A stretch of DNA of 22,819 nt, taken from positions 1 to 22,819 of the IMG/VR virus record IMGVR_UViG_3300048029_000105. One strand, 5' to 3'. Under the pieces are notes generated by a model that searched no databases, was not told where the DNA came from, and saw only the letters and a program-made list of their open reading frames with translations. The position numbers and the translations under genes are program-made. Shown here piece by piece: positions 293-15,940 of the stretch. Position 1 is the first letter of the stretch; every line of letters starts with the position of its first letter. Source of the DNA: a virus.

Positions 293-445
293 CTAGTCTG
301 GAATAACTAGTAAATTAGTACCAATTTCAATTTGTTTTATTACGTCGCAAATTGTTATTTGATCCTGGATCTTAAGCCCGCCCCGCTTTAATTTATCAAC
401 CAGGGCGGCGTGTATTATCTTTTGTTCTCGTGTTAAATTACCCAT
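293..445 (-). CDS. Small hypothetical soluble protein (50 aa)
   Basis: Not recognised. The product begins MGNLTREQKIIHAALVDKLK, with a short amphipathic helix followed by a hydrophobic beta-like end (TNLLVIPD). The ATG at 445 is preferred over an in-frame ATG at 499 because it overlaps the stop of the upstream membrane peptide gene by 8 bases, the arrangement seen throughout this genome; the longer form would swallow most of that gene. It is the last gene of an operon with two tiny membrane peptides and is followed by a terminator. No function can be inferred. Confidence 0.6.
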   Translation of the reverse strand: MGNLTREQKIIHAALVDKLKRGGLKIQDQITICDVIKQIEIGTNLLVIPD

Positions 446-521
446 AGTGCATCCAGGTTGAAAGGCAAAGAATAAACGACCACATAAGAGCGCATCCAAT
501 TAAGATTAGTATATTTTTCAT
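438..521 (-). CDS. Tiny membrane peptide (27 aa)
   Basis: The sequence begins MKNILILIGCALMWSFILCL and ends STWMHYG. Nearly the whole peptide is one hydrophobic helix, with a Cys at position 10 that gives a weak lipobox-like look (LIGC). Its ATG shares bases with the TGA of the preceding membrane peptide (CTATGA overlap), and its TAA overlaps the next start. These overlaps on both sides are the main support for coding. It could be a small lipoprotein or spanin-like piece, or a membrane-acting accessory peptide; this is inference only. Confidence 0.5.
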   Translation of the reverse strand: MKNILILIGCALMWSFILCLSTWMHYG

Positions 522-610
522 AGCGTTGATATTATTTGTATTGAAGCACCAATAATAAAAATAAAAGTTAGTGCGGTTAAAATGTAAGCAATTGTATTTT
601 GTGTGTCCAT
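518..610 (-). CDS. Tiny single-pass membrane peptide (30 aa)
   Basis: The peptide starts MDTQNTIAYILTALTFIFII and ends GASIQIISTL: a short polar N-terminus and one transmembrane helix at about residues 7-28. The ATG sits in the AACAATTATGG context shared with other starts here. A TATATTTG promoter element lies 21 bases upstream (631-638), making this the first gene of the leftmost operon, which continues with overlapping genes at 438-521 and 293-445. Function unknown. Confidence 0.6.
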   Translation of the reverse strand: MDTQNTIAYILTALTFIFIIGASIQIISTL

Positions 611-630: not shown

Positions 631-666
631 CAAATATAAGGTATTTAATGTTAACTTAATGTTAAC
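631..666 (-). promoter_or_regulatory. Promoter with two 11-bp-spaced TTAACA boxes
   Basis: The minus strand reads TTAACA-N5-TTAACA-N10-TATATTTG. The last element (631-638) matches the Bacteroidota -7 consensus TAnnTTTG. The two hexamers are part of AATGTTAAC on the plus strand at 647-655 and 658-666, exactly 11 bp apart. They lie over the 3' end of the upstream 58-codon gene, so the repeat also encodes its last residues. The layout matches a head-to-tail operator for an OmpR/PhoB-type or excisionase-type protein. Confidence 0.6.
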
Positions 667-827
667 TTTTTCTTTTGCTCAATCATATATTCCCGCTGTA
701 TGTCGTAAGTTTTACCCACGACTTCTAATTTCTGTTCAAAGGTCAAATGCCTATATTTTAAGTGCCCGTACATTTGTTCGACTACTTTTGTTCTAGTGTC
801 CAAATAATTTAAAGGGTGTATATACAT
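651..827 (-). CDS. Hypothetical 58-aa protein
   Basis: Not recognised. The product begins MYIHPLNYLDTRTKVVEQMY and is mostly charged and helical, with no Cys cluster or membrane segment. The start ATG at 827 follows the stop of the gp88-like gene by three bases, so the two are co-transcribed from the promoter near 1768. The last codons (TTA ACA TTA AGT TAA) are built from the TTAACA repeats that form the next promoter's operator, so coding and regulatory sequence overlap here. Confidence 0.65.
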   Translation of the reverse strand: MYIHPLNYLDTRTKVVEQMYGHLKYRHLTFEQKLEVVGKTYDIQREYMIEQKKKLTLS

Positions 828-830
828 AGC

Positions 831-1586
831 TTATATATTTTTAATAGTGAAGCCTGTTGCATCTTTGCGGGCTGCGCCTTTGGCTTTCAGCCCTAGAATT
901 ACACCGTTATATTTTAGCATCTGCAAGTCTGATTTATCGCCGTCCACAACCTCAGTGGACCACCACCTTTTTGGTAACTCGTTAAACACTGCAGCTACAT
1001 TAATTCCGTGACGGATAGCCAATTCAGTTTTTACGGCGTTATCCTCAGCCCTGGAAAAAGTTACCGTGTAATTTGGGTGGCTTTTATATCGCAAACATTT
1101 TTGTATATTCTTGCTATAATCGTAAAATACGGCGTGCGGCTGTAGCGTCTCAATATCTAAGAAACCATATTTTTTGAGCATATAAACGAAGTCAATATCC
1201 GAGGTGCCGTTTAACCTGAAAGCTACTTTATAGCCGTTACGTCTAGCCTTCGCCGTCTCTTGCGTAATTTCGTCCGCTAACTTATTAAGAAAGGCTAGCT
1301 TATTTTTAATAAACAGCTCAGTTTTATTGACACGGGCCTTTATTACATTTGAAAACGAACCGCGCCCCGCACTGACCAAACAAGCAGCCGCACAACCTTT
1401 GGAGGCGTGCGGGCAAAGGTTTTTACCTTCACTGTTCTGGTTGTATGGCATTAAGTAAAGGATGAAAGTCTTTATTTCGTTTTTTGCCGTTTTAGCATTC
1501 GTTGATCCTGGCGAAAGTAATTTTTTCGGCATATTGGGGACGCTAGTTGAAACGGCGTCCCAAACATTAGTTTCAAAATTATTCAT
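831..1586 (-). CDS. Mycobacteriophage gp88-like protein
   Basis: This 251-aa protein resembles the phage family named after mycobacteriophage gene product 88 (Pfam GP88). Visible signatures are a Cys cluster, NLCPHASKGCAAACL, with C58, C65 and C69; a following SAGRG turn (about 72-76); and the conserved RLNGTSDID block at about 124-132. The spaced cysteines suggest a metal or Fe-S site, but no biochemical role is established that I can cite. The ATG at 1586 lies 3 bases after the preceding stop in an AATTATG context. It is the second gene of a three-gene unit (1589-1741, this, 651-827). It is far larger than its neighbours and is the only member with a recognisable family. Confidence 0.75.
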   Translation of the reverse strand: MNNFETNVWDAVSTSVPNMPKKLLSPGSTNAKTAKNEIKTFILYLMPYNQNSEGKNLCPHASKGCAAACLVSAGRGSFSNVIKARVNKTELFIKNKLAFLNKLADEITQETAKARRNGYKVAFRLNGTSDIDFVYMLKKYGFLDIETLQPHAVFYDYSKNIQKCLRYKSHPNYTVTFSRAEDNAVKTELAIRHGINVAAVFNELPKRWWSTEVVDGDKSDLQMLKYNGVILGLKAKGAARKDATGFTIKNI

Positions 1587-1588
1587 AA

Positions 1589-1741
1589 TTACTGGACGTT
1601 TTTATATATATTTAAACCAGCGGCAAAACCTAAAATTTTACCAGTATACAAATAAACATAATCTTTACAAGCATATATCGAAGGCTTAGACCTTAAGCGC
1701 TTGCGGTTGCTTCGTGGGTGAATGTAGAATTGAATTTCCAT
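1589..1741 (-). CDS. Small basic hypothetical protein (50 aa)
   Basis: The product begins MEIQFYIHPRSNRKRLRSKP and ends YTGKILGFAAGLNIYKNVQ. It is strongly basic in the N-terminal half, with a hydrophobic C-terminal half. It is the first gene after the promoter at 1768-1845, with a leader of roughly 20 bases. The gp88-like gene starts only two bases after its stop. Not recognised; the basic N-terminus would be compatible with nucleic-acid binding, but that is a guess. Confidence 0.6.
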   Translation of the reverse strand: MEIQFYIHPRSNRKRLRSKPSIYACKDYVYLYTGKILGFAAGLNIYKNVQ

Positions 1742-1767
1742 ATTTTTTTTATTTTAGAATTACCCTA

Positions 1768-1845
1768 CAAACATACGGCACGCCGTGCGGCTAAATGTTA
1801 AGCTAATGTTAAGAAATGCACCCCCAATGTTAAGAAATTGTTAAC
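1768..1845 (-). promoter_or_regulatory. Promoter with four phased TTAACA boxes and a palindrome
   Basis: The -7 element TATGTTTG (1768-1775) matches TAnnTTTG. Upstream on the minus strand are four TTAACA hexamers in two N5-spaced pairs. The corresponding plus-strand nonamers start at 1794, 1805, 1826 and 1837, giving spacings of 11, 21 and 11 bp, close to whole helical turns. The N20 spacer between the proximal hexamer and the -7 element contains interlocking GC-rich palindromes (1775-1786 and 1778-1788). It drives the 50-aa gene, the gp88-like gene and the 58-aa gene. Confidence 0.65.
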
Positions 1846-1863
1846 AAGGGGGGTACAAAAAAA

Positions 1864-1929
1864 CCTACTGCGTTTAACGATAACCCTACTGCGTTTAACG
1901 ATAGGGAAACCTACTGCGTTTAAGAATCG
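1864..1929 (-). repeat. Three tandem TTAAACGCAGTAGG repeats
   Basis: On the plus strand CCTACTGCGTTTAA occurs at 1864, 1885 and 1910, with offsets of 21 and 25 bp. The first two copies also share the flank CGATA, so that unit is 19-20 bp. The third copy supplies the stop codon of the zinc-ribbon gene (GAT TCT TAA). The array lies directly upstream of the TTAACA promoter at 1768-1845 and belongs to the family found at 3381-3420, 13935-13975 and 22002-22035. Confidence 0.85.
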
Positions 1930-2045
1930 AACAGTGCGCTGATATCGTCTATGTCTATGAAGTCTGCGTGTTCTTTGCACTTCGAACAAAGGTCGGTGTT
2001 CCAAATCGGTGGAGCATCACAACAGTTACTAACTATCTCAGACAT
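1920..2045 (-). CDS. Small zinc-ribbon-like protein (41 aa)
   Basis: The protein begins MSEIVSNCCDAPPIWNTDLC and continues SKCKEHADFIDIDD. C8, C9, C20 and C23 form a CC-x10-CxxC knuckle typical of short phage zinc-ribbon proteins, followed by an acidic tail. The ATG at 2045 is chosen because it overlaps the stop of the upstream gene (ATGTATGTCTGA region); an in-frame ATG at 2126 would overlap that gene by almost 90 bases. It is the last gene of the operon that begins at 3248. The metal site is inferred from Cys spacing, and the partner or target is unknown. Confidence 0.7.
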   Translation of the reverse strand: MSEIVSNCCDAPPIWNTDLCSKCKEHADFIDIDDISALFDS

Positions 2046-2322
2046 ACATTGCATCATAATCGTGAATCGAATCCCAATACTTACAAGCGTTCTGATAGCT
2101 TCCTGTAGTACCAGGCTTAATATCATCCCTTGAAGGGATTACATTGCCGTAGAAGTCCTTATATTGCTTCTTGGGTAGCATACACTGTCCAGACTCTAAT
2201 AGTCGCATTGCCTCTCTTCCATATGAACCTTCCATATGCCAGACTGAACCATCATTGATTAGGCGTTGCATACCAGCAACGCCATAATCTTCCTGTAGCT
2301 TACTTATTTTCCTGTAGTGCAT
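2038..2322 (-). CDS. Hypothetical 94-aa protein
   Basis: The sequence begins MHYRKISKLQEDYGVAGMQR and contains INDGSVWHMEGSYGREAMRLLESG, followed by a PKKQYKDFYGNVIPSR segment. It looks like a compact soluble alpha/beta protein; I cannot assign a family. It overlaps the upstream HTH gene by 23 bases and the downstream zinc-ribbon gene by 8, consistent with translational coupling in one operon. The position next to an HTH_17 protein hints at a regulatory or accessory role, which is inference. Confidence 0.7.
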   Translation of the reverse strand: MHYRKISKLQEDYGVAGMQRLINDGSVWHMEGSYGREAMRLLESGQCMLPKKQYKDFYGNVIPSRDDIKPGTTGSYQNACKYWDSIHDYDAMYV

Positions 2323-2815
2323 CCCTTAAGTTATTTAATATTAATTCGTCACTATCCTTACGCTGTTTAATTGTAGTAGATACAATTGAATCTAGCCAAT
2401 GGAATAAGTCGGTAGCGTCAAACGTAACAGTTTTTTGACCTTGGCAGATATGCAGCTCACCATCAGATCCATAGATAGTATCTATCATTCCGATATAGAA
2501 ATTATCGTGTCGAACCTCTTCTTCTTGCATATCATTAAGCACGTCTATAATATTTGTTTGACTGCTTAAGGTCTTAGAATCCAGGAGATTGTTCTCAAGC
2601 TCGGTGACTTGATTTTCGATCTCTTCGCTTTCCCCTCTTTTATCTTCTAGCCATTTATCTATCTCGGCTTTGTTGAATAGCAGCTTTCCGCCTGTGGGAT
2701 TGCTGTAAGGGATTTCACCATTGGAGGTGTAGTTATATATAGTACCTAGAGAATATCCTGTGTACTTAGCTGTTTGCTTTGCTGTTAACTGCTCTTTATT
2801 TGCGTATTTAAACAT
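2300..2815 (-). CDS. HTH_17 / excisionase-type DNA-binding protein
   Basis: The 171-aa protein has an N-terminal winged helix of the MerR/excisionase (HTH_17) type: residues about 9-50 read QTAKYTGYSLGTIYNYTSNG, then IPYSNPTGGKLLFNKAEIDKWLEDKR, with the characteristic sequence of helix, wing and W-L helix. The rest is acidic and helical, with predicted coil around 60-75 (ESEEIENQVTELENNLL). Such proteins act as excisionases, DNA-bending factors or small regulators and often bind direct repeats as head-to-tail filaments, which makes it a candidate binder of the TTAACA arrays nearby. No integrase or attachment site is visible in this window, so excision is not supported. It is separated from the upstream gene by two bases. 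Confidence 0.8.
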   Translation of the reverse strand: MFKYANKEQLTAKQTAKYTGYSLGTIYNYTSNGEIPYSNPTGGKLLFNKAEIDKWLEDKRGESEEIENQVTELENNLLDSKTLSSQTNIIDVLNDMQEEEVRHDNFYIGMIDTIYGSDGELHICQGQKTVTFDATDLFHWLDSIVSTTIKQRKDSDELILNNLRDALQENK

Positions 2816-2817
2816 AA

Positions 2818-3105
2818 TTATATAAATTTAATAGTTTTACCATTTACTTTTGCCTCAATTAAGGTATTGAGATTAACCATCCTGAACCCCTTCTTTTGCA
2901 TATCGTATACAACGAAAAGGTTTTTAGTATCTGGATTAAAAGACATTCCTACGCCCTTTACTCCTTTCTTTACACCCCTACGGGCTACCATCGTCCTAAT
3001 AGTGCCATCCTTCTTTTCAAAGGTTACACTAAAGATCTTACCACTCTTAGTGGCCTCTGTGAATTGTTGCACTCTTGTTTTAGGTGCTGTCAAAATCCAA
3101 GTCAT
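2818..3105 (-). CDS. WYL_2 / DUF2693-like SH3-barrel protein
   Basis: This 95-aa protein reads SGKIFSVTFEKKDGTIRTM near residues 21-39, then ARRGVKKGVKG and a C-terminal LFVVYDMQKKGFRMVNLNTL. It resembles the small Sm/SH3-fold family formerly called DUF2693 (Pfam WYL_2), common in phages and mobile elements of Bacteroidota and in T4-type phages. The predicted role is nucleic-acid or ligand binding, without a demonstrated substrate. The ATG at 3105 comes two bases after the stop of the 46-aa gene, in the TATAATTATG context also used by the next gene. Confidence 0.7.
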   Translation of the reverse strand: MTWILTAPKTRVQQFTEATKSGKIFSVTFEKKDGTIRTMVARRGVKKGVKGVGMSFNPDTKNLFVVYDMQKKGFRMVNLNTLIEAKVNGKTIKFI

Positions 3106-3107
3106 AA

Positions 3108-3248
3108 TTATATAGTGATTTTAAGTGTTACTCCGTTTTTATTTACCTTTACTTCTGATGCTTCTTTAGCGAGCTGAGCTACTGTCTTAGCATCTTGCGG
3201 ATTAAAGCCCTGGGCTTTCAATACGCTTTGTAGTGTTGGTTTCTTCAT
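3108..3248 (-). CDS. Small hypothetical protein (46 aa), operon leader
   Basis: The protein begins MKKPTLQSVLKAQGFNPQDA and ends NKNGVTLKITI. The first half resembles a short SAP-like helix pair; the second half has a KVNKNGVTLKI pattern resembling the VNGKTIKFI end of the following WYL_2-like gene. It starts only four bases downstream of a TATATTTG -7 element, so its mRNA would be essentially leaderless. It is the first gene of the operon running to 1920. Function unknown. Confidence 0.65.
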   Translation of the reverse strand: MKKPTLQSVLKAQGFNPQDAKTVAQLAKEASEVKVNKNGVTLKITI

Positions 3249-3252
3249 AGGG

Positions 3253-3309
3253 CAAATATATAAAGCCCTGGAATATCCAATGTTAAGTTAACGTTAAGAA
3301 ATCGTTAAG
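3253..3309 (-). promoter_or_regulatory. Leaderless promoter with three 11-bp TTAAC(G/A) boxes
   Basis: The minus strand reads TTAACG-N5-TTAACG-N5-TTAACA-N20-TATATTTG-CCCT-ATG. The plus-strand nonamers start at 3279, 3290 and 3301, exactly 11 bp apart. The N20 gap to the -7 element (3253-3260) is the same length as in the promoter at 1768. The start codon follows the -7 box by four bases, so transcription should begin at or beside the ATG. Confidence 0.65.
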
Positions 3310-3372: not shown

Positions 3373-3380
3373 TCACAAAC

Positions 3381-3420
3381 CCTACTGCGTTTAAGAGCTA
3401 CCCTACTGCGTTTAATGATA
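3381..3420 (-). repeat. Two tandem TTAAACGCAGTAGG repeats
   Basis: CCTACTGCGTTTAA occurs on the plus strand at 3381 and 3402, a 21-bp period. Both copies are complete, and the second has the flank TGATA resembling the CGATA flank of the copies at 1864-1903. They lie between the 9-bp repeats and the hairpin at 3423-3475, upstream of the operon starting at 3248. Confidence 0.85.
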
Positions 3421-3422
3421 AA

Positions 3423-3519: not shown

Positions 3520-3527
3520 CAAATATA
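3520..3527 (-). promoter_or_regulatory. Possible -7 promoter element after terL
   Basis: TATATTTG on the minus strand matches the Bacteroidota -7 consensus and lies just after the large terminase stop. A convincing TTG at the -33 position is not visible. Downstream is only the hairpin at 3423-3475 and a 9-codon frame, so if active it would transcribe the structured element and possibly read into the next operon. Confidence 0.35.
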
Positions 3528-3542
3528 CAAAAATATTTTATA

Positions 3543-4754
3543 CTACCTAATAGTATAAGCACCTTTTGTGCGATTTACTAAAACATATTGAGCAGCATAC
3601 CTGATTGCATCGATGCAGTGATTCCATTTGTCTACAGGCTTTGTCTGGCCTTTAGTGGCCCATACATAGTTATTCAGCTCCTTAATCAGTTCCATAGAGT
3701 CTGGATCAACAATAAGGTCATAGTCTTGCAGTAGTGCAATACCCGATAGGATAGACCCACTGCGTTTAATGGTCGGGGTTATATTACACCCCTTAAGTTT
3801 TATCTCTTTAATAAGACGCGGTTCTGCAGAGTCCGACACCACTAGGTGCGGACCTGCATACCTTATATTATAGTCTGCTATTTGTGTAGTCGACATACCT
3901 GTCTTAGCATACATTACTTTAAGGAATATGCGCTTATTGCCTTTGTCGATAGATAACTTAACCAGTGTAGTGGGGTCAACGGAGAAACCAAAATCCTGTC
4001 CGAATATAGTATCATAGTTATCGTTGAACTGACCTACTCTCCAATTGGTAAAGATAACACCTTCTTGCTTTTCCATCCACCCACCAAGTATCTGGTGTGT
4101 GTACTTCTCAGGTCTACGTCTTCTAATCTCTGCTATCTGATTCAGAAACGACTGTGATAGGTTATCAGTATTGTCAAGGTAAGTAGTGTGTATATAGGTA
4201 ATTCCATTTTGCATTCCATTGAATCCTTCAGGGATATCTCTATTCGCATAGAAGCGTCCCCATATCCAATGCTCTTTAGTGGTTGGGTTAAGTATTAAAA
4301 TGACCCTATTAGGTTTAGTCTTCACCCTAACAGACTGGTCAATCTTATCGAAGGTATCTTCATCCGTAAGCTCTTCTGCTTCATCTAGGACAAAGGTGGT
4401 TATTGCGTTTAACGATTTCAGTGATGCTGTTTGATTCCCTGATGCAGTTCTAATTCCCTTAAATAATATAGAAGATCCTGTCTTGATATTTGTTATCTCG
4501 TCTTTCGTTATGCGAAAGTCCTCGACAACACCCATAAGTTCTAACTTCTCTAAGAACTCAGGAATAATAGACGATGATGCAGAGGTCATAGTATATCGTG
4601 TAAACAGTATCTTATGCCCCTTCTCGTATGTTAGTAGCAGTAAGAACACATTGACTGCAAAAGACTTACCAGAACCTCGCCCTCCTGTTGTAATGAAGTA
4701 ACGTGACTCGTTACCAAATGCTTTGTACTTAGGATTTAAATTAGGCACTTTCAT
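3543..4754 (-). CDS. terL: Terminase large subunit (packaging ATPase/nuclease)
   Basis: Motor protein that packages DNA into the prohead. Counting from the ATG at 4754: Walker A TGGRGSGKS at residues 23-31, Walker B VLDEAEE at 122-128, coupling-type LNPTT at 155-159, then an RNase H-like nuclease domain with D254 (GQDFGFSVDP), D308 (VVSDSAEP) and D382 (NHCIDAIRYA). The 403-aa length fits the PBSX/Terminase_3 group. The ATG at 4754 overlaps the TGA of the upstream PAPS-reductase-like gene (ATGA); an in-frame TTG three codons earlier is less likely. Oddly, TerL is some 16 kb downstream of the portal. Two copies of the TTAAACGCA motif fall inside the gene (3761-3768 and 4404-4411). Confidence 0.95.
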   Translation of the reverse strand: MKVPNLNPKYKAFGNESRYFITTGGRGSGKSFAVNVFLLLLTYEKGHKILFTRYTMTSASSSIIPEFLEKLELMGVVEDFRITKDEITNIKTGSSILFKGIRTASGNQTASLKSLNAITTFVLDEAEELTDEDTFDKIDQSVRVKTKPNRVILILNPTTKEHWIWGRFYANRDIPEGFNGMQNGITYIHTTYLDNTDNLSQSFLNQIAEIRRRRPEKYTHQILGGWMEKQEGVIFTNWRVGQFNDNYDTIFGQDFGFSVDPTTLVKLSIDKGNKRIFLKVMYAKTGMSTTQIADYNIRYAGPHLVVSDSAEPRLIKEIKLKGCNITPTIKRSGSILSGIALLQDYDLIVDPDSMELIKELNNYVWATKGQTKPVDKWNHCIDAIRYAAQYVLVNRTKGAYTIR

Positions 4755-5605
4755 AATCCACAATATCCGCTATCACATTCATTAAAGTCATCATCAAATA
4801 ATTCTATTTGGCTACTCCATTTAGCTATTTCATCATAAGTAATCTTCTCTTTCCAGGTAGCACCATTAATGCTTTCCCTTTCTTTTTGAGCAAACCAATT
4901 TAGTTTATTTGGGTGTTTCTGCCACATTTTAGATAAGAGTAAATTCTCTTTATGAAAACATCCAACACAATTATTCATCCAAGCAAACCTAACGAGCTTA
5001 TCTTCCCAATACTTCTCAATACCATCCTTATATACGTTATCCGTTATAAGGGGAAATTCAGGCATACAATAATCTATTTTTTTCCATCTATTTGTTTTTC
5101 CACTCTTGCTCTTACCGACAATAATATCGGCTTCTATAAAGCCTCTATTATTTTTTCTAGCAATCATTCTTTTAGCACGGTTCTGTTCATTAGCTCTAAA
5201 CCCAAACCTCATAATAGGAGATGAATCTAAATTATTATATGTCCATTCAGCAATAGGTGTAACCTTCATCTCTGTGGTGCAGAATCTACGCATATAAGAC
5301 GGAAGAAAAGTCTTACCATTCTTTTTCATTATGATATCATCAAATAGCTTACCTGTTACCCAAGTAATTTTCCTTCCTATATATTGTTCTAAATCAAGCA
5401 TAGTATGTATAATTATATCATCCTCCAATGTACCTACAAATGGTGCTTGTATTCTATCCTCTACTTCTTGTCTTAGTTTCTTATCAGGGTACATACAACC
5501 TTTATCACTTGTTCTAACTAACGAAAATACATCATAGTCAGCAGGATAATTGGCTGCTATATAGCTTGATGTTTTACCACCGCTTAGGCTATTTATTGTC
5601 TTCAT
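4751..5605 (-). CDS. PAPS reductase-like PP-loop protein
   Basis: This 284-aa protein belongs to the adenine nucleotide alpha hydrolase/PAPS reductase (CysH, DndC) superfamily. It has an N-terminal PP-loop SLSGGKTSSY (residues 6-15), FCTTEMKVTP (C109) and a C-terminal NNCVGCFHKE with C213 and C216; C37, C180 and the tail cysteines C277 and C282 could add metal ligands. Family members activate or transfer sulfur (sulfate assimilation, DNA phosphorothioation, tRNA thiolation). Which reaction applies here cannot be read from sequence; the rest of the Dnd or sulfate pathway is absent. It overlaps the small-terminase candidate by 17 bases and terL by 4, so it is inserted into the packaging operon, next to a cytosine methyltransferase. 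Confidence 0.85.
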   Translation of the reverse strand: MKTINSLSGGKTSSYIAANYPADYDVFSLVRTSDKGCMYPDKKLRQEVEDRIQAPFVGTLEDDIIIHTMLDLEQYIGRKITWVTGKLFDDIIMKKNGKTFLPSYMRRFCTTEMKVTPIAEWTYNNLDSSPIMRFGFRANEQNRAKRMIARKNNRGFIEADIIVGKSKSGKTNRWKKIDYCMPEFPLITDNVYKDGIEKYWEDKLVRFAWMNNCVGCFHKENLLLSKMWQKHPNKLNWFAQKERESINGATWKEKITYDEIAKWSSQIELFDDDFNECDSGYCGL

Positions 5606-10124: not shown

Positions 10125-10261
10125 TTCCTATTAATTAAAGACTTGTCAACGTAAGATGATTTCCTATTGGTCCTGCTGTAATAGTATGTACTTTGGAACT
10201 CTGTCGTAGGGATAAATTTTAACCCCTTATTTATTTCTGCTTTTGTCTTTCTTCGTTTCAT
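10121..10261 (-). CDS. Small basic hypothetical protein (46 aa)
   Basis: The sequence begins MKRRKTKAEINKGLKFIPTT and continues EFQSTYYYSRTNRKSSYVDK. It is rich in Lys/Arg/Tyr and could bind nucleic acid. The ATG overlaps the sigma-factor TGA and the stop overlaps the next ATG, both as ATGA, so it is bracketed by coupled genes. No family recognised. Confidence 0.6.
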   Translation of the reverse strand: MKRRKTKAEINKGLKFIPTTEFQSTYYYSRTNRKSSYVDKSLINRK

Positions 10262-10818
10262 ATCCTTTCGTAGTCTTGGTTAAAAAAATCTTCTATGTCC
10301 TCTCCGAACTTTTCTTTAAGTATCTCCTTATAGTTCTTGCAAGAGTTATATATGCTCGTAAGTGAAATCTTTGTATCCTCAGCAATATTCCTAAGAGACT
10401 GATTAGTATAATAGTATAGCTTGAATAATTTTTGGTCATACCAATGCCAAGTGGAAACCTCTTCATCAATGGAGTTAAGTATCTTAAGATATGCCTCCTC
10501 CATAAAGTCATCTTTCTGCTTTTTTTCTGTGCATTGCGAAGAAGGTGATAACACCCCGATACTCTCAGCATCTGCATAGTCTTTACCGATTTGCCTCTTT
10601 TGAAACTTAAGATGGTCATAAAATAAGTTGCGTAAAGTGATGTATACAAAAAAAGGATTAACCTCACCATTCTTTATTATTTTTTCAGGGTTATCAACAT
10701 ATTTGTGTAGTCTAAGGTACATATCTTGAACTAGATCATTAGCAAGGATTATATCCCCACATAGTGAATGAGCCATAGAAATCCATTCCTTGTGTTTAGT
10801 CGTCAGTATCTCTAACAT
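10258..10818 (-). CDS. Sigma-70 family-like RNA polymerase sigma factor
   Basis: The 186-aa protein has the two-domain layout of short sigma factors. Region 2 is at about 15-75, with CGDIILANDLVQDMYLRLHK and FFVYITLRNLFYDHLKFQKR. A region 4-type helix-turn-helix is at about 128-170, with YDQKLFKLYYYTNQSLRNIA and SLTSIYNSCKNYKEILKEKF. It would redirect host polymerase, probably to late phage promoters. A candidate target is the repeated TTAAACGCAGTRGG element in this window, but this is untested. It overlaps the small membrane protein gene by 23 bases and lies in the replication operon, consistent with middle expression before late genes. Confidence 0.8.
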   Translation of the reverse strand: MLEILTTKHKEWISMAHSLCGDIILANDLVQDMYLRLHKYVDNPEKIIKNGEVNPFFVYITLRNLFYDHLKFQKRQIGKDYADAESIGVLSPSSQCTEKKQKDDFMEEAYLKILNSIDEEVSTWHWYDQKLFKLYYYTNQSLRNIAEDTKISLTSIYNSCKNYKEILKEKFGEDIEDFFNQDYERI

Positions 10819-13099: not shown

Positions 13100-13132
13100 C
13101 AAATATATAAAAAATTATTCTTTTACCAAAAA
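13100..13132 (-). promoter_or_regulatory. Near-leaderless promoter of the ERF operon
   Basis: TATATTTG at 13100-13107 on the minus strand, with TTTTTGG upstream giving a TTG at 13127-13129 and a 19-bp spacer, fits the Bacteroidota -33/-7 promoter. Only four bases separate the -7 box from the ERF ATG (TATATTTGCACTATG), almost the same as TATATTTGCCCTATG at 3248. The -33 part lies within the end of the upstream 82-aa gene. Confidence 0.65.
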
Positions 13133-13537: not shown

Positions 13538-13939
13538 CTATTTTATAGTTCTTTCGTGTATTATATCGAATGGGAATATAGAGTCAGCCTTCATATCGTC
13601 ATTGTCTACATACAGGTAGTTATTGTTTATTCCTATCCGTGTAAAACCAGCCTCTAGAAGTGCTGTTATAATCCGATATCTCTTGTATGTGTGCTTACAT
13701 TGAATTACTGCTGCTCTACCAATTAAGTGTGAAGAATGCTCAAGTTCATTGATCTTACCTCTACAACCGTAACAGACGAACCCCTTCAGTACCTTAAACT
13801 TCAGTTCGGCTAAACCCCTCGCTTCGTCAAGCATCTGCAAGAAGTGTCTATCCATATTTTTAAAGCCTGTAGAGTGCTTATCGCACCACTGACAGTCAAA
13901 TTCTTCGTACTCGAAGTGTTTAAGCTCGTGTATACCCAC
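13538..13939 (-). CDS. Degenerate M15 peptidase paralogue with two CxxC motifs
   Basis: The 133-aa protein aligns end to end by eye with the M15 peptidase at 14480-14833: HFEYEEFD versus YFNYSEFD, EHSSHLIGRAA versus ENSSHLKGLAV, and LLEAGFTRIGINNNYLYVD versus LLDVGFSRIGVAKTFIHAD. Of the three zinc ligands only His (H71) remains; Asp is V78 and the second His is Y110, so it should not be catalytic. In exchange it has CQWC (C16, C19) and CYGC (C56, C59), which could form a structural zinc knuckle. It starts with GTG at 13939 inside a TTAAACGCAGTGGG repeat and ends the lysis operon. It may be a cell-wall-binding or regulatory pseudoenzyme. Confidence 0.75.
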   Translation of the reverse strand: MGIHELKHFEYEEFDCQWCDKHSTGFKNMDRHFLQMLDEARGLAELKFKVLKGFVCYGCRGKINELEHSSHLIGRAAVIQCKHTYKRYRIITALLEAGFTRIGINNNYLYVDNDDMKADSIFPFDIIHERTIK

Positions 13940-13975
13940 TGCGTTTAAGAATTAGCCTATTGCGTTTAAGAATTA
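13935..13975 (-). repeat. Two tandem TTAAACGCARTRGG repeats
   Basis: TGCGTTTAAGAATTA occurs on the plus strand from 13940 and again from 13961, a 21-bp period, preceded by CCCAC and CCTAT. The left copy contains the GTG start of the degenerate M15 gene, and the right copy directly follows the stop of the 41-aa gene. Same orientation as the other copies. Confidence 0.85.
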
Positions 13976-15400: not shown

Positions 15401-15940
15401 TTAATTGTTATTAATGTATTTAAATTTATATCCTTTTGCAAGTTCATCTATTCCAAGACAAACTCTATATACTCCTTTTATACCTGTTTTTTTAACGGCT
15501 TCTGATGCGCTATTATATTCAGCTACAAATTTATCATCGCAGGTAAACTGATGTACTTTTTTACTATTTCCCTCTCCTATTCCTTTTTTGTGATTTTCTG
15601 ATAACCGTTTGCCTTTCGACCAAGACGAACCACCACTATTGGCTAAACCTATTTTACGCTTTGTTTCTGCTTTATGTGTAAATCCTGAAGTTCCATCTCC
15701 ACCAACAGTTAAGTTTGTAAGGTTTTCTAATCCAATAGCTTCTATTAGTTCCATTTCTAAATTAAACGCTTCTTGCTCTGTCATATTATCCTTAAAGATA
15801 GTAACGTTATAACCATACTTATCTACTACTCTTTGCCAATAGGCATTTCTATTGTTTTTTTTAGTCGCTCTATATCCTTTGCCTTTGCCGACATAGAATA
15901 TCTGACCATTTGGTTTTTTATGTAGATAAACGTAAAACAT
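15401..15940 (-). CDS. GIY-YIG homing endonuclease
   Basis: This 179-aa free-standing homing endonuclease starts with a GIY-YIG domain in which the two motifs read YVYLHK (3-8) and FYVGKGKGYR (15-24), followed by E66-region helices (NLEMELIEAI). It has a NUMOD3-type DNA-binding repeat SGFTHKAETKRKIGLANSGG (about 90-109) and a C-terminal NUMOD1-like segment VHQFTCDDKFVAEYNSASEA. It would nick or cut a homologous site in related phages and copy itself. It lies between the fibre genes and the 133-aa gene without interrupting an identifiable frame. Confidence 0.85.
   Translation of the reverse strand: MFYVYLHKKPNGQIFYVGKGKGYRATKKNNRNAYWQRVVDKYGYNVTIFKDNMTEQEAFNLEMELIEAIGLENLTNLTVGGDGTSGFTHKAETKRKIGLANSGGSSWSKGKRLSENHKKGIGEGNSKKVHQFTCDDKFVAEYNSASEAVKKTGIKGVYRVCLGIDELAKGYKFKYINNN

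Follow-up and report, generated by a model that had tools for sequence, protein, structure and literature searches.

Tandem hexamer repeats at promoters of marine flavobacterial phages probably let the host phosphate-starvation regulator turn on small, probably early genes

Boxes of the OmpR-family regulator PhoP of Bacillus subtilis consist of TTAACA-like hexamers with a period of about 11 bp. Among phages, host Pho boxes are known at promoters of the cyanophages P-SSM2 (Prochlorococcus) and S-PM2d (Synechococcus); in gel shifts, S-PM2d promoters were bound by the host's PhoB, and the expression of some phage genes went up when P was depleted (PMC10976474). The Pho regulon of Flavobacterium johnsoniae includes phoBR with OprP and a TonB receptor, and is induced by Pi depletion (PMC8115612). 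Putative Pho boxes were mentioned at plcP clusters of marine bacteria, in a report whose main text does not give their sequences (PMC4796936). Neither a Bacteroidota Pho box sequence nor a flavophage Pho box was described in the literature found, which covered few subscription papers.

The window analysed here is a 22.8-kb virus record from IMG/VR, in which almost all genes lie on the minus strand. An earlier note on this DNA had claimed that hexamer tandems with an exact 11-bp period occur at three promoters and nowhere else in the window, with gaps of 10, 20 and 20 bp between the proximal hexamer and a TAnnTTTG box. Each part of this description was confirmed. A pattern search of the whole window found five exact TTAACR-N5-TTAACR pairs, every one of them on the minus (gene) strand at one of the three promoters, and no further pair in the rest of the window; 300 dinucleotide shuffles gave a mean of 0.057 pairs and a maximum of 1. 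The boxes and the genes behind them are as follows.

649-665, 1796-1812, 1828-1844, 3281-3297 and 3292-3308, minus strand: the five pairs
649-665, minus strand: box 1, TTAACATTAAGTTAACA, two copies, period 11
631-638, minus strand: -7 box of promoter 1, TATATTTG, 10 bp past the last repeat
293-610, minus strand: promoter 1 unit of tiny ORFs, located at 518-610, at about 436-521 and, 50 aa long, with its end at 293; the family of the last is present in 10 loci
1796-1844, minus strand: box 2, two pairs, TTAACAATTTCTTAACA (1828-1844) and TTAACATTAGCTTAACA (1796-1812)
1768-1775, minus strand: -7 box of promoter 2, TATGTTTG, 20 bp past the last repeat
1589-1741, minus strand: 50-aa ORF following promoter 2, family in 7 loci
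831-1586, minus strand: GP88-family protein (PF17338, E 1e-36)
3281-3308, minus strand: box 3, three copies, TTAACGATTTCTTAACGTTAACTTAACA
3253-3260, minus strand: -7 box of promoter 3, TATATTTG, 20 bp past the last repeat
3108-3248, minus strand: 46-aa ORF, first gene past promoter 3, family in 23 loci
2818-3105, minus strand: WYL_2/Sm-like beta-barrel protein (PF10902), in 75 viral loci
2300-2815, minus strand: an HTH_17 domain, private to this phage, joined to a conserved small gene

A scan of the window found TAnnTTTG sites without the box in non-genic DNA near 13100, 3520-3535 and 249; the box is thus no constant feature of promoter-like sites. The repeat unit exceeded the hexamer and reads TTAACATTnnn, with A or G at position 6 and T at the next two positions in 70% and 84% of copies, respectively.

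The terminase of the window was 81-98% identical to that of 80 other IMG/VR loci, and the nearest named phages by terminase were Nonlabens P12024L and P12024S (52%). In the 81 terminase-related loci (722 kb), 178 gene-strand pairs had a spacer of 5 (period 11), a count that, like that of the 97 boxes below, does not represent independent events because many boxed sequences are interrelated. No gene-strand pair had a spacer of 1-4 or 6-10, and a spacer of 16 (two turns) was found 70 times. Where an exact TAnnTTTG was present, it lay 9-10, 19-22 or 30-31 bp past the last copy, mostly 20 bp (97 distinct boxes). A -7 box matching at least 5/6 stood at these phased distances in 82 of the 97 unique boxes, compared with 8% of random positions. 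A scan of all IMG/VR for the box followed after 20 bp by TAnnTTTG gave 96 stretches; 9 were found with period 12 instead of 11, 13 with a distance of 10 bp, and none with the off-phase distance of 15 bp. The earlier note had named two sequence outcomes that would refute it, frequent pairs away from promoters and lack of conservation; both checks turned out in favour of the feature. Tandem direct repeats with an 11-bp period and a fixed helical phase to the -10/-7 element, two of the properties by which we judged a Pho box, were both present.

When boxed loci were grouped by shared proteins (single linkage), most joined the group of the window and nine fell outside it; boxes also occurred in phages with fewer than two proteins in common with that group. 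Two of the nine (L288, L355) are pieces of one 17-kb contig, IMGVR_UViG_3300034073_002502, which carries about 19 boxed promoters, almost every one built as TTAACATTnnnTTAACA, 20 bp, TACATTTG. One gene of this contig had a weak DUF7227 match. In another phage contig outside the group (L335), the first gene past the box encodes a NADAR-domain protein (PF08719) of 152 aa. Among cultured phages, Polaribacter phages P12002L and P12002S had two boxes apiece (in P12002L at promoters located at 48338 and 46024), and the promoter box was absent from Nonlabens phage P12024L, the nearest cultured terminase relative, and from two other cultured flavophages.

Such repeats might simply serve the basal promoter, for instance as an A/T-rich UP element in helix phase, without any specific protein switch. 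They are A/T-rich and lie at promoters, and in the 20-bp class TTG often follows at position -33. However, the TT after the hexamer is 70-84% conserved although it lay outside the search pattern, the pairs are absent from rpoD loci, and the other promoter-like sites of the window have none; we consider a purely basal role very improbable.

A second gene-strand element was seen near the boxes. The 12-mer TTAAACGCAGTA, usually followed by GG, had 314 gene-strand copies and none on the other strand in the 81 loci, 289 of them outside ORFs of at least 100 aa. It is often tandem, 17 or 21 bp apart, and often lies within 250 bp upstream of a TTAACA box. In the window it occurs at the following positions, and it is also present in L001-L080.

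1863-1930: copies of TTAAACGCAGTA
3380-3421: copies of TTAAACGCAGTA
13934-13975: copies of TTAAACGCAGTA
elsewhere in the window: single copies

The 13-mer TTAAACGCAGTAG had only 10 copies, on both strands, in 30 genomes of the host group.

Flavobacteriaceae are indicated as the host group by the TAnnTTTG type of promoter and by the closest cultured relatives; a prophage search with the terminase in genome contigs found none. TTAACA-N5-TTAACA was sought at host phosphate promoters in thirty genomes of Flavobacteriaceae and near relatives, reached through rpoD. Since PstS was rare in this sample (7 of 30 genomes, 1 over the cut-off), the porin OprP (PF07396) and the phosphate transporter PiT (PF01384) were taken as markers. 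TTAACA pairs with at most one mismatch peaked at period 11 around PiT (19 vs 0-8 at other periods) and around OprP (15 vs 0-10), and had no such peak at the control rpoD loci (4 vs 1-8). When the 30 genomes were scanned without bias for TTAACATT-N3-TTAACATT, allowing at most one mismatch, 93 sites were found, many of them probably due to chance, as the reversed pattern gave 41. Thirteen of the 93, from 12 genomes, lay within 1.5 kb upstream of OprP or PiT on the same strand, where 0.04 were expected (Poisson value 2e-28, which ignores shared ancestry). A strict pattern, CTTAACA-N4-CTTAACA, had a single match in the same genomes; this count is misleading because in the host sites the hexamer is preceded by other bases.

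OprP, PiT, a PhoB-like regulator and a kinase (PhoR) follow the box in Aquimarina macrocephali. In Salinimicrobium marinum, it is followed by OprP, PstS, PstC, PstA and PstB, after which a PhoU-like gene begins. The assignments of PstA, PhoU and the kinase were made by eye, on sequence and gene order. At the sequence level, these operons (OprP-PiT-PhoB-PhoR and OprP-PstSCAB-PhoU) settle the identity of the box. The core TTAACGTTAACTTAACA at the Altibacter OprP promoter is identical to positions 3281-3297 of the window. The last TTAACA lies about 9 bp from the TTTG box at OprP and 19-20 bp from it at PiT, and these spacing classes (9 and 19-20 bp to the -7 box) agree between hosts and phages. 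Sites in Flavobacterium are degenerate: in Flavobacterium sp. Root186, the promoter of a TonB receptor adjoining phoBR has three degenerate copies, ATAACA-N5-ATAACA-N5-TTTACA, ending 9 bp before TTTCTTTG. This receptor stands in place of F. johnsoniae Fjoh_0545, an orthology drawn from gene order and domain, with no tree; Fjoh_0545 had a reported log2 FC of 8.0 under Pi depletion (PMC8115612). The third property of a Pho box, that host-group phosphate genes have the same sequence upstream, was thus found, with the exception of four PhoX loci, at which the box was not detected. The TTAACATT repeat, which the phages also carry, is very likely the Pho box of the Flavobacteriaceae.

A conserved, secreted-looking protein of about 104-119 aa is also encoded beside the host box, often divergently from PiT or OprP, and is perhaps phosphate-regulated as well. 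Its genes are located as follows.

L373, 3383-3742: gene of the secreted-looking protein
L374, 8003-8362: gene of the secreted-looking protein
L375, 4891-5247: gene of the secreted-looking protein
L376, 4167-4520: gene of the secreted-looking protein
L380, 3235-3594: gene of the secreted-looking protein
L382, 8350-8664: gene of the secreted-looking protein

The best NCBIfam family of the host-group response regulators, which have receiver and Trans_reg_C domains, was PhoB, below its curated cut-off. The activator could be another OmpR/PhoB-family regulator of the host that prefers almost the same site, the phosphate operons being only part of its regulon. Some host matches do precede TonB receptors or unrelated genes, and tandem sites of about 11 bp are common to OmpR-family regulators. 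The sole concentration tested and found, however, was at OprP/PiT/pst operons, and two of these run on into phoBR or pst-phoU; we regard a different family member as unlikely.

The earlier note had left two candidates for the regulator, a host phosphate-type response regulator and the phage HTH_17 protein acting as a head-to-tail filament. The former now has strong support, since OprP/PiT/pst/phoBR operons of Flavobacteriaceae carry the same box, and the latter is not supported. An operator of the HTH_17 protein should co-occur with the regulator gene, and the domain was found in only 1 of 133 box-carrying viral loci, that of the window; the other 132 lacked it. The C-terminal half of the protein is the conserved small gene. 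Since the rest of the protein is conserved and the HTH_17 domain is absent from the other boxed loci, the domain is a private addition; the protein as query found no relatives in viral contigs. A phage-encoded regulator such as this one, encoded two genes downstream of box 3, would leave the likeness to host sites to convergence. This is hard to reconcile with the single occurrence of the domain, with the same box geometry at host phosphate operons, and with boxes in phages sharing fewer than two proteins with the group of the window, and we judge it highly unlikely. No Trans_reg_C domain was found in the window, and no PhoB homologue was seen in the fetched viral loci, which are partial, such that a regulator encoded in another part of these genomes could have escaped detection. 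As the viral loci show no PhoB homologue, the regulator of the boxes is most likely that of the host.

We consider it likely that the phage repeats are host Pho boxes at which host PhoB~P binds and activates small phage genes under phosphate shortage. We infer that the phosphorylated PhoB-type regulator would bind head to tail along the TTAACATTnnn repeats, at intervals of one helical turn, and contact the host RNA polymerase at TAnnTTTG promoters. Transcription of the small phage genes would thereby be raised, and their expression would be highest when the host is short of phosphate. Bound PhoB might instead repress the phage genes and hold them back in starved cells; the proximal repeat does overlap the -33 region or lie next to it. 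Host uptake operons, whose induction by starvation is expected (PMC8115612), have this same geometry in front of them, and repression appears extremely improbable.

The genes that PhoB would activate are short and mostly uncharacterised, and no recognised phosphate-uptake gene was found among the boxed phage genes examined. The predicted structure of GP88 (pLDDT 73) gave only weak TIM-barrel-like matches, none below E 0.001. GP88 homologues sit close to the genome end in several pelagiphages, and in P12002L and P12002S one box precedes the outermost gene of the leftward small-gene block; both positions suggest that the boxed genes are expressed early. The window also encodes a sigma-70 region 2 protein (10258-10818, minus strand) with relatives in 63 viral loci, which might be a phage sigma factor driving later genes. 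A PAPS-reductase-like gene (phrog_424; 4751-5605, minus strand) adjoins the terminase, and a GIY-YIG/NUMOD homing-endonuclease-like gene lies at 15401-15940 (minus strand).

The box provides a concrete candidate sequence for the Flavobacteriaceae Pho box, undescribed in the literature found and present in phages of major marine heterotrophs. Should binding hold, a shortage of phosphate would tune phage expression directly, tying nutrient state to infection outside cyanobacteria, and the cultured Polaribacter phages P12002L and P12002S are ready test material. The 17-kb contig with its many boxed promoters raises a broader and rather doubtful possibility: that marine and freshwater Bacteroidota phages commonly wire host-takeover blocks, beyond metabolic genes, to phosphate starvation, with environmental phosphate setting the course of infection.

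Compared with the PhoP boxes of B. subtilis, the repeats described here have nearly the same hexamer and the same period, in another phylum and with another promoter type. The F. johnsoniae regulon is matched through the syntenic Flavobacterium TonB-receptor promoter with its degenerate repeat copies, whereas the main text of that study describes neither a binding site nor a phage (PMC8115612). The likeness to cyanophages lies in phage promoters that bear host Pho boxes, here as judged by sequence. The cyanophage box, in contrast, is PyTTAAPyPyT/A, its targets include pstS and DNA polymerase (PMC10976474), and it belongs to a different phylum; here, short uncharacterised genes make up most of the targets, and conservation of the box extends across a phage family. 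Phage use of host PhoB is thus already known from cyanophages, and what is new is the phylum, the box, and its presence at several small-gene units throughout a phage family.
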